Shown here one piece after another: positions 2,605-9,596 of a DNA stretch of 64,000 bases. Numbering within the stretch: position 1 is the stretch's first letter; each line of letters starts with the position of its first letter. Made by a program: the position numbers and the translations under genes. Location of the stretch: positions 1,240,001 to 1,304,000 of the forward strand of contig NC_019902.2 of the NCBI RefSeq assembly GCF_000321415.2. The letters run 5' to 3'. The notes under the pieces are model-generated. The model searched no databases. It saw only the letters and a program-made list of their open reading frames with translations, and had not been told where the DNA came from. Source of the stretch: Thioalkalivibrio nitratireducens DSM 14787. GTDB lineage: Bacteria > Pseudomonadota > Gammaproteobacteria > Ectothiorhodospirales > Ectothiorhodospiraceae.

Positions 2605-3207
2605 TTACTGGCGCTGGCGCAGCAGGCTCATCCGCTCCATGACCCCGTCCCGGCGGATCTTCCAGTGGTAGATGGCGCCGGCCACATGCAGCACGATCAA
2701 ACCGGCCAGCGTGATTCCGACGATGCGGTGCCATCCGAACAGCCTTTCGGAAAGTGCCTCGTTCTCGCTGATGAACCCCGGCAGTAGTTCGATGTGGAAA
2801 AAATGAACAGGAAATCCACCGGAGGCTGTGGCCAGTACGCCGAGCACGGGCATCACCAGCAACAAGAGCACGTAGAACAGCGTGTGGACGGTCCGGCTCG
2901 CCAGACGCTGGAAAAGGGAGAGCGGCACCGCGTAGGGCGGCTTGTCAAACCACAGCCGGGCGATCAGTCGCAGCACCATGAGGCCGAGGATCGATAGGCC
3001 CAGCGTTTTGTGGGCGGTGTAAAAGAAGTCGGTACCCTGCGCCCCGAAAGTGGCACGCATGCCCTCGAAGCCGAGGAATCCGATCGTGCCCCCGGCGATC
3101 AGCGCCAGTATCACCAGCACCGCAATCAGCCAATGCAGCATCCGCTGTACCAGGGCGTAGCGCGGCAGCGTGGCGGGTAAATCGGTGCTCACTTCAGAAT
3201 GGTTCAT
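2605..3207 (-). CDS. Cytochrome b561 family protein
   Basis: Four-helix inner-membrane di-heme b cytochrome of the bacterial CybB type, 200 aa. Such proteins pass electrons between the quinone pool and periplasmic acceptors. Seen: transmembrane segments around residues 22-45, 60-85, 105-130 and 160-182. Candidate heme-ligand histidines are in RMLHWLI (near 25), TAHKTLG, FGWHRIV and LIVLHVAGAIYHW, the usual pattern. The gene converges with opgH (34 bp apart). The ATG at 3207 follows a purine-rich stretch and gives a normal-length product. The physiological partner is not evident from the neighbours. Confidence 0.9.
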   Translation of the reverse strand: MNHSEVSTDLPATLPRYALVQRMLHWLIAVLVILALIAGGTIGFLGFEGMRATFGAQGTDFFYTAHKTLGLSILGLMVLRLIARLWFDKPPYAVPLSLFQRLASRTVHTLFYVLLLLVMPVLGVLATASGGFPVHFFHIELLPGFISENEALSERLFGWHRIVGITLAGLIVLHVAGAIYHWKIRRDGVMERMSLLRQRQ

Positions 3208-3765: not shown

Positions 3766-4295
3766 ATCGCCTGGCGGTCAGGGCATTCGCGGCATGCGGC
3801 GCAGGCTGCTGTCGGCACGGATGTCGGCGAACCACTGGCGCCAGGTGCGGTCGTCGGCCAAAAGCGGACGGCAGCGCCGCCCGGCGGAGTATCGATCGCC
3901 CGCAGTGCGTCCCCAAGAGGCCACTGCCGGGCAGCCAGGGCAGGTTTCTCTCCGTCATCCGCAATAATCAGGTTCTCCGGCGCCGGGAAAGGCGGTACCT
4001 GCGGTTTGCGGCTCGGACCTGGACCCACACCGGTAGATTGCCCAGGCCCCTGGCGGCCTACGGCAGCGCAATGAAAGATTCCGGCAGAGGTGACGAGGAC
4101 GACGCGGCCCGTTGCTGCGAACCGGAAGGGCGCAGCAGTCCACGCCCATTTTCCCGTGAGGTTCACCCAAACGCTGCTGTAGAGTTTTTGCTGTTGCTGG
4201 CGGGAACGATGACATGGACGTTGTCGGCGGTGCCTTCACCCGGTTCGAGGGGCGTGTGCCGGTCGGTTTAGGCGGTTGGCCGCTCGCGTGGAACG
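3766..4295. other. Intergenic region with possible degenerate coding remnant
   Basis: No intact gene. On the minus strand between about 4070 and 3779, protein-like stretches switch frame (a piece ending near ALAARQWPLGDALRAI, then another frame giving WRQWFADIRADSSLRR before a stop). This could be the tail of a decayed gene, but no family is recognised. The rest has no identifiable feature. Confidence 0.3.
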
Positions 4296-4403
4296 AAAAA
4301 ACCCCGGAGGGGACCCCCGGGGCTTCTGTCGCTCGGCAACCGACCCATCCTTGGACCGTCCATGATGCTGCCGGGTCATCCATGACTGCCGTCTATGGCG
4401 ACG
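4296..4403 (-). ncRNA. Structured small RNA, copy 1
   Basis: A free-standing RNA gene inferred from signals conserved with a second copy at 9000-9112. On the minus strand it has promoter TTGCAT-18-GAAAAT, then a hairpin CCGTC-GCCATA-GACGG (4404-4389) identical in both copies, a second small hairpin GTCA-TGGA-TGAC with GGA in its loop, two more GGA motifs (AUGGAC, AAGGAU), and a GC-rich terminator stem (CCCCGG/CCGGGG) ending in six Ts at 4301-4296. Length is about 108 nt. Three exposed GGA motifs recall CsrA/RsmA-binding RNAs, but that is only a suggestion. It lies 266 bp beyond the 3' end of the SLC13 transporter gene. No convincing open frame explains the conservation: an ATG exists but has no ribosome site. 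Confidence 0.7.
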
Positions 4404-4408
4404 GAGGC

Positions 4409-4438
4409 ATTTTCCATCATTGGGCTGTGGGAATGCAA
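4409..4438 (-). promoter_or_regulatory. Promoter of small RNA copy 1
   Basis: On the minus strand, -35 TTGCAT (4438-4433) and -10 GAAAAT (4414-4409) are 18 bp apart. The same -35, the first ten bases of the spacer and the spacing are kept at the second copy, where the -10 is the better GATAAT. Predicted start is near 4403. Confidence 0.6.
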
Positions 4439-4669
4439 CTCTCTGGCTAAAGTGCACGTTGACGGCCATTCGCGGAGCCCGTCCACGTGCAGGAGGGCGT
4501 CTCCGACCTGTCGGGGCTGTAGAAGGCGAGCCCCGTCGTCGCGTCGTGCCGGGAAACGGGGAGCTGGGCTGGTCTTGTAGGGGCGTGCCTTGCACGCGAA
4601 TGGGCGTTGCGTGAGGGGCCGGCGTTCGGTGCGCCTGCGGGGCGCGGCCGGTGCCCGGGGCATTCCGGG
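4439..4669. repeat. Intergenic segment with short dispersed repeat motifs
   Basis: No gene is seen. A segment near 4580-4615 (GCGAATGGGCGTTGC) recurs near 6645-6660. Together with 3766-4295 and the small RNA it fills the gap between the tRNA and the transporter gene. Confidence 0.4.
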
Positions 4670-6436
4670 TTACCAGCTCCACACGAGTGGAATCAGGGTC
4701 AAGGCCACGGCCGCGGTGGCCAGGTTCATGGGGATGCCGGCGCGCAGGTAGTCGGTGAAATGGTAGCCGCCGGGGCCGTAGACCATCAGGTTGGTCTGGT
4801 AGCCGAACGGGGTGGCGAAGCTCGCGGAGGCCGCGAACATGATCGCGATGGCGAAGGGCAGCGGGCTCGCGCCGAGATCGCCCGCGACGGCGAACGCGAT
4901 CGGGAACATCAGCACCGCAGCAGCGTTGTTGGTGATCAGCGCGGTGAACACCGCAGTTGCCAAGTAGATCATCGCCAACTGCGCCCAGGGATGCGGGCCA
5001 GCCAGGCCGGTCAACGCGTGTGCCAGCGTCTGGGCCAGTCCAGTGGTTTCCATCGCGGCTCCTACGCCGAAGGCCGCGGCAATGGTGAACAGCACCGGCC
5101 AGTCGATGCTGGAGCGGGCGGTTTCCAGTGTGACGCAGCGGGTGACGACCATCAGCGCAGCTGCGGCAAGGGCGGCCTCCAGCATGCTCAGCAGGCCGGC
5201 GGTCGCGCTCGCAACCATCGCGGCCAGAATGCCCAGCGCCAGCAGCCCGCGCTCGTGCCGAGGCGTGGCGGAGCCGTCGATCTGGCTGATCAGGAAGAAG
5301 TCGCGCCGGTTGCGGTTCTGTGCGAGAAATGCCGGGCCGGCCTCGACCAGCAGCGTGTCGCCGGGGCGCAGGCGGATCTCGCCGATCTTGCCGCGCAGGC
5401 GTTCACCGTTGCGGGCCACCGCGATGACGACCGCGTTGTAGCGGTTGCGAAAGCGTCCGTCGCGGACCGTTTCTCCGACGATCGGGCAGGTATCGGACAC
5501 CACGACCTCGAGCAGCGCACGGTCCGCGCGGTGGCCGTCGAGCTTGAATACCTGGTGGGTGGCGGGGGTAAGGCCGCGCATCTTCTGCAGGTCGACCATT
5601 GAGTCGACCACGCCGACGAAGATCAGCCGGTCGCCGCCGCGCAAACGTTCCTGCGGGGATACGGCGGGGAGCAGCGTGCCGTCGCGGTCGATCTCCATCA
5701 GGAATCCGCCGGGCAGGTTGCGCAGGCCCGCCTCCTCGATGCTCCGGCCGACCAGCGGCCCTTTGGGGTCTACCAACATTTCCAGGGTGTATTCGCGCGG
5801 ATCGTCGATCTCGCCGATGGCCGGCCGGCGGTCCGGAAACAGCCAGCGGTTGCCAAGGAGCATCAGCGCCAGCCCTGCCAGGGTCACCGGCACCCCGACC
5901 CAGGCCACGTCGAAGAGGTTCAGCCCGGCACCGGTGCGTTCGATCAACAGGCCGTTCACGACGAGATTCGTGCTGGTGCCGATCACGGTGATGGTGCCGC
6001 CCAGGATCGCCGCGAAGGAGAGCGGCATCATCAGCCGTGAGACCGGAAACCGGAGCTTGCGCGCCCAGTCGGCGACCGCCGGAATCAGCATGCCGACTAC
6101 CGGCGTGTTGTTGAGGAAGGCGCTGATGAACGCCACCGGGGCGGTGAGCCGGAGCTGTGCTCGGCGCAGCGAGCGTGGCCGTCCGAGCAGCCGGTGTCCG
6201 ATCCATTGAATGCCACCGGTCTCGCGCAGTCCCGCGACGACCACGTACAGCGCGCCGACAGTGATCACGCCCTGGTTCGCGAAGCCCGAGAAGGCCTGTG
6301 CGGGGCTGATGATTCCGGTAAGCAGCAGCAGGACTACGCCGCCGACGAAGACGAGATCGGGCGCCGCGCGGCTCAGGGAGAGCACGACGAGCATGCCCAG
6401 AATCAGGGCGGCGGTGAACCAGGCTTCGATCGGCAT
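4670..6436 (-). CDS. SLC13/DASS-family transporter with two TrkA_C (RCK_C) domains
   Basis: Inner-membrane permease of 588 aa of the SAC1/YfbS type, commonly sodium-coupled and annotated for sulfate or other divalent anions. About five helices precede residue 205. Two cytosolic RCK_C regulatory domains follow (about 205-290, containing LRGGDRLIFVG, and about 295-370, containing LRPGDTLLVEAG). Then come about six more helices. The paired SNT-type motifs are visible as FLNNTPVVGMLIP and GTSTNLVVNG in the first half, and LITNNAAAVLMFP and TPFGYQTNLMVYGPG in the second. It lies on the same strand as the APS-kinase fusion upstream (335 bp), which makes sulfate the favoured substrate, by context only. 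The start at 6436 has a weak ribosome site. Confidence 0.88.
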   Translation of the reverse strand: MPIEAWFTAALILGMLVVLSLSRAAPDLVFVGGVVLLLLTGIISPAQAFSGFANQGVITVGALYVVVAGLRETGGIQWIGHRLLGRPRSLRRAQLRLTAPVAFISAFLNNTPVVGMLIPAVADWARKLRFPVSRLMMPLSFAAILGGTITVIGTSTNLVVNGLLIERTGAGLNLFDVAWVGVPVTLAGLALMLLGNRWLFPDRRPAIGEIDDPREYTLEMLVDPKGPLVGRSIEEAGLRNLPGGFLMEIDRDGTLLPAVSPQERLRGGDRLIFVGVVDSMVDLQKMRGLTPATHQVFKLDGHRADRALLEVVVSDTCPIVGETVRDGRFRNRYNAVVIAVARNGERLRGKIGEIRLRPGDTLLVEAGPAFLAQNRNRRDFFLISQIDGSATPRHERGLLALGILAAMVASATAGLLSMLEAALAAAALMVVTRCVTLETARSSIDWPVLFTIAAAFGVGAAMETTGLAQTLAHALTGLAGPHPWAQLAMIYLATAVFTALITNNAAAVLMFPIAFAVAGDLGASPLPFAIAIMFAASASFATPFGYQTNLMVYGPGGYHFTDYLRAGIPMNLATAAVALTLIPLVWSW

Positions 6437-6771
6437 GCGGGTATTCGCGGTTCAAGCGGGGCGTGGGGGGCGGTGCGGGTCGACTGCCCTGGCGTGCATC
6501 CTGCGCCGGCACAACCTACGCGGTAACGGGGCACAGCCTTGTTGGTTGTGCCGAAGGCACAACATGCCGGGCGTCGGTCGTGCCCCGGGCGCTGGGGGTG
6601 TGGTGGCGTGGGGGTGAGGGTCTGGGGTTTGGCGCGCCTGCGGCGCGAATGGGCGTTGCATGCTGTGCCTGCTGCGTCGGCACAACGCACGGAGGTGGGG
6701 CCGGGGCCGGTGCGCGCAATCTCGTGGCACTGCGTATGAACCGGGCGGCGATGGCCTGCCACTCGCGGATG
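6437..6771. repeat. Intergenic region rich in GTTGTGCC/GGCACAAC palindromes
   Basis: No gene. It holds several copies of a REP-like palindrome. The best is GTTGTGCCGAAGGCACAAC at 6545-6563 (8-bp arms, 3-nt loop). Related ones lie at 6501-6523 and 6662-6686. Others are at 8896-8920, about 9165-9187 and 10259. The motif clusters around the transporter/APS-kinase island. Confidence 0.6.
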
Positions 6772-8724
6772 TCAGGTGCTCGTTCCCGGCTGCGGGTGCG
6801 CGAGAATCTGATCGATCACGCGTTGCGCTGCCGCGCCGGGATCCACTTGGCTGCTGTCGATGCGCAGTTCCGGGGCTTCGGGTGGTTCGTAGGGCGAGTC
6901 GATCCCGGTGAAGTTCGCCAGCTCGCCCCGGCGGGCCTTCCTGTACAAGCCCTTCGGGTCGCGCTCTTCGGCGACCGCCAGCGGCACGTCGACGAACACT
7001 TCGAGGAACTCGCCCTCGGCCAGCAGATCTCTCGCCATGCGTCGTTCGCTGCGAAACGGCGAGATGAACGCGGTGAGCACGATCAGACCGGCATCCACCA
7101 TCAGTTTCGCGACTTCTCCGATGCGGCGGATGTTTTCGACGCGGTCGGCCTCGGTAAAGCCGAGATCCCGGTTCAGCCCGTGGCGCACGTTGTCGCCGTC
7201 CAGCAGGTAGGTGTGGTACCCAAGCAAGTGCAGGCGCTGCTCCACATGGTTGGCGATGGTGGACTTGCCGGACCCCGACAGGCCCGTGAACCAGATCACG
7301 CAGGGCCTTTGCGCCTTCTGCCGTGCACGCGCGGTCTTGTCCAGATCGACGTGCTGCAAATGGATGTTCTGCGCGCGCCGCAGTGCGAAGTTCAGCAGGC
7401 CCAGTCCCAGCGGGTCGTCGGTCTCGCGGTCCAGGATCACGAAACGGCCGGTGGCCGGGTTCTCCGTATAGGGGTCGAACGCTGCCGGGCGGTCCAGGCT
7501 GATGTTGCACACTGCGATGCTGTCGGCGCTCAGCTGATCTGCGGCGAGGCGCTCGAGCGTCTCCGGATTCACCTGGTATTTGATGTCGGTGACGGTGAGT
7601 TCGGCCCGCTGTGCGCCGATGCGTGCGGCGTAGCGGCGGCCCGGGAACAGGGGTTCGTCCGTGAGCCAGAAGATCCGGGTCTCGAACTGGTCGGCGACCA
7701 GCGCCGGGGCTTCCCCGCTGGACACGATCGCCCCATCGGGCAGTTGGAGCGGAGGATCCAGCGTGAGGTGGACGTTCTCTCCGGTGCGCGCTTCCTGCTG
7801 CGGGCCGTTCCTGCCAAAGATTCCGGTAACGCGGCTCTCGCGGCCCATCGGCTGGGCGCGGATGCGTGCACCCGAGCAGAGTCGGCCGCTTGCGACGGTG
7901 CCGGCGCAGGCGGCCCGGTCCCCGGGCGCAGCGATTGCGGTCTGCGGTTGCGGCGTGTGCCGAGCCGACGTCTGCGGCGAGCTCGGCAGGTCCGGAGTGC
8001 GGGCGGCAACGGATCCGGCGGCTGGTTCGGGAACCTGCGCTCGGGCGGGCGCCTGAGCGTGAACCACCAGACGGAACGGGCGGTCTTCCTCGGTCTGATG
8101 TTCCAGGGCTCCCGTGCCCAGCCACTCGGCGAGGCTCGGGCCCGTGTACCCGGGACTCGGCGCGGCGGACGTGGAGTCGTGGCCGCTTCGGTCGGTATCG
8201 ACCGGGATGGTCGCGTGGACCCGGACGCCCACGCGCTCGGCGAAGTCCGCGAGTTCGCGCGCCAGCGCGTGCAGGCGACCCTCTGCAAATCCGGAGTCGC
8301 CCAAGCGGTCGACTGCCAGTGCAAGCCTTGGCACGCGCAGCTGTGCCAGCAGGTAGACCTGCTGGCACAGGGCGGGGGTAAGGCCGGTATCGGCGTCGGT
8401 GAGCAGTACGACCGCATCTGCCGTGCGCAGCGCGTCGAGGCCGGCGAGGTCCGGCGCGCCGTGGCGCAGGATCCCGGTGATTTCGACGCGCGGCGCTCGG
8501 GCGTTGCCGGGCATGGAGGCCTCGGCTGCTGCACGGAATTCGTGTTCCGGCGCGGCGCCAGGACTCGCGACCGGGGGACGGGCGTTTCCGGTGCGCGTGC
8601 GCAGGTATTCCACGAGCGTCGCGACGGCGGGTTCGCGCATGCCGCCGACGGCCACGCGCAGCGGCCGGTCGATCAACGGAATGCTGCCAGATGGGCCCGC
8701 CATCGCGGTTCCTGTTCGGGACAT
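6772..8724 (-). CDS. CysN-like (degenerate GTPase)-adenylylsulfate kinase fusion
   Basis: 650 aa, laid out like bifunctional CysNC. The start at 8724 is set by an excellent GAGGAG site 5 nt upstream. Residues 20-210 align in outline with the CysN GTPase (the [14 protein letters not shown] strand, the [12 protein letters not shown] end) but lack the P-loop GxxxxGKS, the DTPGH switch and NKxD; the last is reduced to VDRLGD. Residues 211-445 resemble the CysN beta-barrel domains, interrupted by an Ala/Pro-rich stretch (225-270). Residues 450-650 are a complete APS kinase with P-loop GLSGSGKST (481-489), the [10 protein letters not shown] motif and [13 protein letters not shown]. It should phosphorylate APS to PAPS. 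The front half cannot hydrolyse GTP as CysN does and may be structural or bind a partner. No cysD is in the window. A small RNA gene ends about 275 bp upstream. Confidence 0.85.
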
Positions 8725-8999
8725 GAAGGCTCCTCGCTCCCTGCGCATCGATCGCCCCCTCGACAGGAGCGCGGTTAGTCTCCCCGATACGGCCCAGGGC
8801 TTCAAGCCATTGGATCCGCGGGCGTTGCCGTTCGTCCCGGACGTGCAGCGGGCGCTGGGGTGCCTCGGGATCCGGCGTTGTAATGCCGTGCTCGTGTTGT
8901 GCCTCCTGCGTCGGCACAACCTACGCGGACTGGCCGGTTGCACCGTCCCGGGGTCGCGATTGGCCGTTGCGCGCTGCGCGGGGCCCACCGGAATCCAAT
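8725..8999. repeat. Leader/intergenic segment upstream of the APS-kinase fusion
   Basis: No gene is seen. It contains one REP-like palindrome (GTTGTGCC 8896-8903 / GGCACAAC 8913-8920). The promoter of the APS-kinase gene should lie here because the small RNA upstream ends in its own terminator, but I could not pick a clear one. Confidence 0.45.
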
Positions 9000-9112
9000 G
9001 AAGAAAGCCCCGGAGGGGTGACCCTTCGGGGCTTCTTGTCGCTCGGCACCGACCCGTCCGTGGACCGTCCATGATGCTGCCGGGTCATCCATGACTGCCG
9101 TCTATGGCGACG
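9000..9112 (-). ncRNA. Structured small RNA, copy 2
   Basis: Second copy of the RNA gene at 4296-4403, same strand. Conserved parts are the hairpin CCGTC-GCCATA-GACGG (9113-9098), the GTCA-TGGA-TGAC mini-hairpin, the segment CCGGCAGCATCATGGACGGT and the GTCGG..CCGAGCGAC element. The terminator differs in loop sequence but keeps the stem (AGCCCCG...CGGGGCT, then TTCTT, about 9034-9000). Changes fall mostly in loops and terminator arms, as expected for a structured RNA. It lies upstream of the APS-kinase fusion in the same orientation, so read-through or attenuation into that gene is possible. Length is about 112 nt. Confidence 0.72.
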
Positions 9113-9596
9113 GGCCGATTATCCCGGGTTGTGCTGTGGGAATGCAAGCCCTTGCCACTGGTGTTTACACGGTCGGTTGGGCCGAAGGCGTAACTTCCCG
9201 GGGGCTGGTTGTGTCCCCCGGGATCGGGGGTGGTGTCGGCTTGGGCTCTCGGCGATCCATATCAGGACGGCAGAGCGCAGCGTCATCCGCCGACCGGCGT
9301 TTGTGCCATCCCGGTGCCCGCGGCGCCCCCGGCGTGGGAACGGCGGATGACGGCTTGCAGCCTTGTCCGCCCTACGCTTCTGTCATGGTTGGGGTGGGGC
9401 CGGGATCGGCGCGATACCCCCTCCCCAGCCCTCCCCCGCAAGCGGGGGAGGGGGGGGGTATCGTCAGGGGTGGCGCGGGGCCATGACCGTTAACCCGGTG
9501 CTGCAGGCGGGGAAGCGCCCGTCGTCGATACGAGGCGTTACCATGCGCGTTCGGTGAACCGCGGATCCAATCCGCGCGACAGCAAGGAGCTCAAGC
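9113..9596. repeat. Intergenic repeat region: CGTCATCCGCC inverted repeat and C/G-run hairpin
   Basis: No gene. It holds an inverted pair CGTCATCCGCCG (9281-9292) / CGGCGGATGACG (9341-9352). The same motif family recurs near 11683, 17155, 30200 and 61584. It also holds an 11-bp perfect hairpin CCCTCCCCCGC (9429-9439) / GCGGGGGAGGG (9442-9452) with a 2-nt loop, followed by a G-run to about 9458. A variant of the GTTGTGCC palindrome lies near 9165-9187. Confidence 0.6.
9118..9147 (-). promoter_or_regulatory. Promoter of small RNA copy 2
   Basis: On the minus strand, -35 TTGCAT (9147-9142) and -10 GATAAT (9123-9118) with an 18-bp spacer. Only one base from the -10 consensus. Predicted start is near 9112, at the first hairpin. 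Confidence 0.68.

Follow-up and report, generated by a model that had tools for sequence, protein, structure and literature searches.

A putative family of CsrA-titrating small RNAs in Thioalkalivibrio nitratireducens and related sulfur bacteria

Introduction

In the genome of Thioalkalivibrio nitratireducens DSM 14787, a transporter gene and an APS kinase gene are bracketed by two paralogous segments, here called copies A and B, and the question raised by this locus is what these segments encode. They lie in a stretch of 64,000 nucleotides (nt) of contig NC_019902.2 (positions 1,240,001 to 1,304,000), which is referred to below as the window and whose own numbering is used for both copies. 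A first-pass annotation of this DNA had proposed that they are noncoding RNA genes of one family, each with a promoter and a terminator of its own, a claim now supported by relatives in other genomes and by covariation. It is concluded that copies A and B are almost certainly members of a real, conserved small RNA (sRNA) family, and the RNAs of this family very probably act by titration of CsrA, to judge from their sequence.

Titration of this kind is known from other bacteria, while the RNA family itself is new. RsmX, RsmY and RsmZ are RNAs that end in intrinsic terminators. They sequester RsmA via several GGA motifs (PMC2375449, in part). RsmX is ~110 nt long, bears ANGGA or AGGA in hairpin loops and is encoded by duplicated genes, rsmX-1 and rsmX-2, of which rsmX-2 carries an upstream activating sequence (UAS) and requires GacA (PMC7911923, in part). 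In CsrB, GGA repeats in loops, about 18 in number, sequester CsrA (PMC7652899, in part).

Two paralogous units in the window

Each unit consists of promoter-like hexamers and an RNA-coding part, as follows.

4433..4438, minus strand: -35 element TTGCAT of copy A, seen in the sequence
4409..4414, minus strand: -10 element GAAAAT of copy A, with an 18-nt spacer from the -35 element
4296..4403, minus strand: sRNA of copy A, ~108 nt, 5′ start inferred; covariance match with expectation value (E) 1.5e-16, to be read in the light of the copy's presence in the training set of model R1 (see below)
9142..9147, minus strand: -35 element TTGCAT of copy B, seen in the sequence
9118..9123, minus strand: -10 element GATAAT of copy B, with an 18-nt spacer from the -35 element
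9001..9112, minus strand: sRNA of copy B, ~112 nt, 5′ start inferred; covariance match with E 3.0e-17, to be read with the same reservation, since copy B also trained R1

The two paralogous units with TTGCAT, an 18-bp spacer and GAAAAT or GATAAT, as described in the first-pass annotation, are thus borne out at these positions, and the promoter stretch TTGCATTCCCACAGC is identical in copy A, copy B and a copy from the congeneric genome G011. The body of copy A (4403-4327, 77 nt) contains the stem GUCGC/GCGAC and three ANGGA sites and is followed by an intrinsic terminator and a U run that reach to about 4296; the body of copy B (9112-9037, 76 nt) also has three ANGGA sites, and its intrinsic terminator runs to about 9001. 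A GC-rich hairpin and then a U-rich end therefore close both units. The bodies differ by two substitutions and one indel over 77 nt, and the indel interrupts any common reading frame. Their first 52 nt are identical, so that the full conservation ascribed earlier to the first hairpin holds and even extends beyond it. As for the terminators, the earlier description of a kept stem under a changing loop applies to the lower stem GCCCCG/CGGGG, which is kept, and to the loop, which varies; it does not extend to the upper part of the stem, which varies too.

With copy A as a blastn query, copy B was matched at 4.0e-37, and A and B were the sole matches in the host genome G000 (4.00 Mb, one contig). 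This match, together with the recurrence of the family in other genomes, argues that the likeness of the two copies is not due to chance. The 1500-nt flanks on each side of the two sRNA genes show no similarity between A and B (best E 0.079, 13 nt), hence what the copies share is promoter, body and terminator.

Relatives and distribution

When 58 genomes were searched by blastn with copy B, the relative in G011 was convincing (E 1.1e-47) and that in G035 weak (E 3.2e-4). Matches at E <= 1 occurred in 42 of these genomes, nearly all of them short chance pieces; in G044 the match covered 29 of 145 bases at E 9.0e-4. The sequence from G035, used as a query against the 47 genomes of the family, identified relatives in G062, G058 and G065; the first such DNA query lacked the 5′ half of the RNA. 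Covariance model R1 was trained on 13 copies from G000, G011, G035, G062, G058 and G065, and the copies of G059, G061 and G050, the third copy of G000 and the second copies of G011 and G062 stood outside this training.

In the 47 family genomes, R1 gave matches with E <= 0.01 in 11, of which eight had matches below 1e-6 and three had weak ones only. The copies number three in G000, two in G011, one in G035, nine in G058, three each in G059 and G061, two in G062 and five in G065, one antisense terminator match being omitted from the last count. Six of the carriers (G035, G058, G059, G061, G062 and G065), with one to nine copies each, belong to one genus, g5, and four of them are taken as Ectothiorhodospira haloalkaliphila ATCC 51935 (G058), E. 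marina DSM 241 (G061), E. mobilis DSM 237 (G062) and E. mobilis DSM 4180 (G035). The third host copy lies outside the window (G000:C1:1368651-1368762) and is diverged; covariance search found it at E 5.2e-7 with R1 and at 1.4e-10 with R2, a model built with this very copy included. Among the genomes that did not train R1, matches reached 2.4e-12 in G059, 1.1e-22 in G061 and 1.2e-11 in G050, a carrier from another family. The covariance search of related genomes, suggested earlier as a check, has thus yielded relatives in G011, in six g5 genomes and in G050.

Beyond the family, R1 matched nine genomes of a class sample of 369 at E <= 0.01, with strong matches only in G000, G035 and G050, and R2 matched four genomes of a class sample of 369 drawn around G050, the strong matches being confined to G035 and G050. 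Stricter filters applied whenever more than 40 genomes were searched, and weak members may have been lost by them. In a phylum sample of 398 genomes the single match was the host's own genome. The host genus contributed two strongly matching genomes out of 30, with two more matching weakly, and the order of G050 is represented by one genome in the collection. A degenerate pattern derived from A and B found no stretch in the genome contig collection, and a looser one found eight, all in four Ectothiorhodospira genomes. At E 1e-5 neither the phage nor the plasmid collections gave a match, and the viral contigs had none either. Weak R1 or R2 matches (26-36 bits) in G012, G006, G004, G167, G097, G408, G168, G317, G071 and G001 were not counted as members because these sequences resemble ordinary terminators or coding sequence by eye, and antisense matches to terminator palindromes were discarded. 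In total, 26 distinct copies from nine genomes keep the same design, and the distribution of the family appears, as far as seen, narrow and patchy.

Conserved structure

The 26 distinct copies, with identical duplicates removed, make up alignment A5, which was fitted to model R1 before covariation was counted. In A5, 92.7% of the cells pair, and two-sided changes occur in 13 of 30 pairs, compared with 6.8 in shuffled alignments (0 of 500 as high) and 3-5 in slid controls. Of the covarying pairs, the terminator stem accounts for eight, the inner stem GGCA/UGCC and hairpin 3 for two each, and the closing stem for one. The inner stem changes from C-G to U-A in two copies, namely the third copy of G000 and its counterpart in G011, and the five pairs of GUCGC/GCGAC are invariant in all 26.

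ANGGA sites

The element that stands out in these RNAs is ANGGA rather than plain GGA, since the former is far more enriched: 96 ANGGA sites are present in the 26 copies versus 17.9 expected from dinucleotide shuffles, and the corresponding numbers for GGA are 117 and 88.0. The first hairpin has the form UC[ANGGA(U/C)]GA in 25 of 26 copies, the exception being the G050 copy, which is one base shorter here. A second ANGGA is present in 25 of 26, and in 20 of 26 the terminator loop or region contains the motif as well; the copies devoid of it there are five from G000 and G011 and that of G050. The stem beneath the terminator ANGGA varies (CCACA/UGUGG, CAAA/UUUG, CGCA/UGCG). In the consensus structure, the ANGGA sites are predicted to fall in short hairpin loops or linkers.

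These features are familiar from CsrA ligands. The SELEX (systematic evolution of ligands by exponential enrichment) consensus is RUACARGGAUGU, with loops mostly of six nt and stems of four or fewer pairs, and targets of RsmE present an ANGGAN hexaloop (PMC7652899, in part). The first hairpins of the sRNAs appear to match both the hexaloop and the six-nt-loop preference. As far as sequence can speak for a function, the sponge role, put forward earlier as a guess, now has strong support: the ANGGA loops are conserved, many terminator loops bear the motif too, and the hosts encode CsrA.

The same loops could be read as mRNA seeds of a trans-acting, base-pairing sRNA of the Hfq type. A stand-alone gene with a terminator fits such an RNA, and a near-invariant first hairpin would also be expected of a seed. 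However, all four bases occur among the copies at the N of the first ANGGA, a position that in a seed would be expected to stay constant, and the motif is repeated at two to five places per RNA, the terminator loop included. Base pairing as the mode of action is accordingly considered quite improbable.

Comparison with known RNA families

At the gathering score, no Rfam 15 family was found at the RNA in the window or in six relative loci, so the earlier impression that nothing among known RNA families matches is confirmed for the loci scanned; the G061 loci stood outside these scans. No Csr/Rsm family of Rfam appeared even at E up to 10 (window positions 4200-9250) or up to 5 (nine relative loci), and at E up to 5 no Rfam family at all lay on the copies of those nine loci. 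At E up to 10, ctRNA_pGA1 (E 0.91) and anti-hemB (E 6.2) overlap the window copies on the terminator side; both are unrelated families with scores far below their cut-offs. As a control, the same library detects E. coli CsrB at E 1.1e-110.

The RNA resembles Pseudomonas RsmX in its size of ~110 nt, in ANGGA in hairpin loops and in gene duplication. It differs from RsmX, RsmY and RsmZ in having neither a GacA box nor, in the loci scanned, an Rfam match; moreover, it possesses its own GUCGC...GCGAC / GGCA...UGCC frame and the ANGGA in the terminator loop of most copies. Repeated GGA elements in loops are common to the present RNA and CsrB (RF00018, clan CL00106), whereas CsrB is 369 nt long in E. 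coli with its about 18 repeats, versus ~110 nt and 2-5 ANGGA here, and the CsrB covariance model does not report the present RNA. R2 weakly matches the 3′ part of E. coli CsrB (L114:2162-2259, E 0.0061).

A further putative CsrA-sponge sRNA was noticed in genome G186 (L107:4998-5122; 5′ end CCTGTCGCCA; no Rfam match at gathering). Like the present family it has ANGGA in the terminator loop, and it is weakly matched by R2 (E 6.3e-4); unlike it, it has a GacA-box-like site upstream, with two mismatches to the consensus (equalled by 1 of 540 shuffled upstreams), and most of its body is unalignable to the family. Its homology to the present RNAs is not established, and it is kept apart as uncertain.

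Machine-learning predictions of CsrA-regulating sRNAs exist, including species without GacA, and the main text of that paper contains no mention of Thioalkalivibrio, Ectothiorhodospira, Halorhodospira or Alkalilimnicola (PMC5568370, in part). No account of the present RNA family was found in the open-licence papers searched; a prior prediction in a supplement or a closed journal is possible. The same searches yielded no described CsrA-antagonising RNA for these sulfur bacteria, though csrA is present in them.

Gene neighbourhood

The genes bracketed by copies A and B are the following.

4670..6436, minus strand: transporter of the CitMHS/sodium:sulfate-symporter type with TrkA-C domains; neighbour only
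6772..8724, minus strand: APS kinase fused to a CysN-like part, between the copies; neighbour only, the start at 8724 being our reading

Within the CysN-like part, Pfam recognises an eEF1A C-terminal-like domain and, below threshold, EF-Tu domain 2, but no GTPase domain. G011 keeps the order of transporter (94% identical), APS kinase fusion (79%) and nitroreductase (94%), with a counterpart of copy A beside the transporter and without copy B. Elsewhere, the neighbours are Y1_Tnp, AAA-ATPase_like/PDDEXK_9 or Transposase_31 genes, among others, and the third host copy and its G011 counterpart have neighbours in common. A functional link between the copies and the transporter/APS-kinase island of the first-pass annotation therefore finds no backing: since G011 has these genes without copy B and neighbours differ elsewhere, the bracketed pair is probably incidental and probably stands outside the sRNA system.

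Copy B precedes the APS kinase gene on the same strand, its end lying ~280 nt away if that gene starts at 8724, a position that could be that of a cis-acting leader or attenuator of the downstream gene. After copy A, however, the next same-strand gene with a Pfam match, among the genes scanned, starts at 3207, ~1.1 kb off (shorter open reading frames between them were not scanned), the APS kinase gene of G011 occurs without the RNA, and downstream genes vary among paralogs and genera, the third host copy and its G011 counterpart excepted. A leader function is hardly credible.

Y1_Tnp genes, IS200-like and probably REP-associated, adjoin copies at L098:2747-3652, L099:3851-4756, L102:4142-4828 and L103:5836-6522; the copies concerned are the third one of G000 and copies of G011, G065 and G061. 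In several g5 genomes (L095, L096, L097, L109), RNA copies alternate with AAA-ATPase_like/PDDEXK_9 or Transposase_31 genes, which suggests joint duplication. Both arrangements would suit DNA that is mobile or repeated, spread for instance by Y1 transposases, and whose structure serves mobility rather than an RNA. Against this stand the lack of similarity between the flanks of A and B, which starts directly outside promoter and terminator, the mere three copies in a 4-Mb genome, the retention of promoter-like hexamers and terminator in most copies, and the enrichment of ANGGA, which would have no role in such an element. The possibility raised earlier, that the two segments are the ends of one transposable element with no structure kept, is disfavoured by the same unrelated flanks and by the structure kept in relatives, and mobile DNA is on the whole a very improbable explanation. 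Repeats of the REP/RAYT type are short dispersed palindromes that occur in many copies and have no promoter or terminator. This identity was rejected for the present units, of which the genome has three, all with promoter-like hexamers and a terminator.

CsrA in the hosts and control of transcription

CsrA (PF02599) is encoded in all eight family genomes that carry the RNA, a count that covers carriers within the family and thus leaves G050 aside, and in 41 of 47 genomes of the whole family. Of the two CsrA genes in the host, one is standard and keeps L4 and R44, CsrA residues named in PMC7652899 (in part), and the other is divergent; the two are convergent and less than 1 kb apart (G000:C1:1435794-1436720). 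In G059, three sRNA copies lie 2-7 kb from csrA.

Promoter-like hexamers and a terminator are kept in most copies, where a TTG resembling a -35 element and, downstream of it, a -10-like stretch hold the same position. In g5, the palindrome TGAA-N4-TTCA precedes the RNA by 64-65 nt; it is exact in 14 of 27 rows, all from G058, G065 and G061, and has one or two mismatches in one G065 copy and in G059; the form seen in the three copies of E. mobilis is TGA-N6-TCA, at -66. Among these 27 rows it was not found at the copies of G000, G011 and G050. The fixed-position TGA-N6-TCA (64-66 nt upstream; L046, L048, L059, L065 and others) is a candidate activator site, and the palindrome may be regarded as a lead, since the copies share ancestry. 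uvrC adjoins the best UvrY-like match in 8 of 10 genomes; the match in G059 covers only 130 of 218 residues.

Weighing the evidence

Several observations weigh against a structured family of CsrA sponges. The strong covariation result uses a model-fitted alignment, and most of its covarying pairs, eight of 13, belong to the terminator stem; in the unfitted alignment A3 (13 copies), covarying pairs number two, which is reached by 322 of 500 shuffles, and the covariation score is only moderately above shuffles, reached by 12 of 500. Single-sequence folds of the window copies are only mildly more stable than shuffles (z -1.5 for A and -2.3 for B; eight other copies range from -1.1 to -4.6, mildly to clearly stable), and single folds often pair the GGA bases instead of forming the consensus hairpins. 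The terminator loops of both window copies are free of ANGGA. Of 1000 shuffles, 8 have at least as many ANGGA sites as copy A and 21 at least as many as copy B; for the copy of G050, the third of G000 and the second of G011, 55-119 of 1000 do. No convincing copy was seen in 39 of the 47 genomes of the family or in 28 of the 30 of the host genus, though CsrA is so widespread in the family. The GacA box has the consensus TGTAAG-N6-CTTACA. It was not found within 400 nt of any of the 26 copies, the best sites having 4-5 mismatches, as in shuffles, and uvrC is not beside the best UvrY-like match, the one examined, in G000 and G011.

CsrA titration by a family of paralogous RNAs is still the preferred explanation. 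The product would be a trans-acting RNA of ~110 nt, predicted to be closed by the GUCGC/GCGAC stem and the inner GGCA/UGCC stem and made from a gene with a sigma-70-like promoter and an intrinsic terminator. The promoter would fire under some condition, CsrA dimers would occupy two or more ANGGA sites per RNA, and CsrA bound in this way would be withdrawn from its mRNA targets, which, once released, would then differ in translation or degradation. Several gene copies would determine how large the sponge is. To judge from sequence, the RNA would be a sponge of the RsmX kind in function, while in sequence it forms a family of its own. It should not be filed under a Csr/Rsm family of Rfam, no model of which matched, nor under the Gac-controlled class, whose box was not found.

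Implications

A bolder view, which we put forward tentatively and hold to be rather less probable than its opposite, is that these CsrA sponges form a lineage of their own that is not controlled by Gac, with a palindrome in the place of the GacA box, a CsrA site in the terminator loop, up to nine gene copies and some other regulator. The terminator-loop site and the upstream palindrome are the new parts of this view. If true, it would tie together CsrA capture, RNA stability and copy number in Ectothiorhodospira. With these RNAs two general questions become testable: can CsrA bind the very loop of a terminator hairpin, and by what are CsrA sponges driven when their genes have no apparent GacA box? 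The family, for which coordinates and a covariance model are now at hand, offers a way into how CsrA is switched in these sulfur bacteria.

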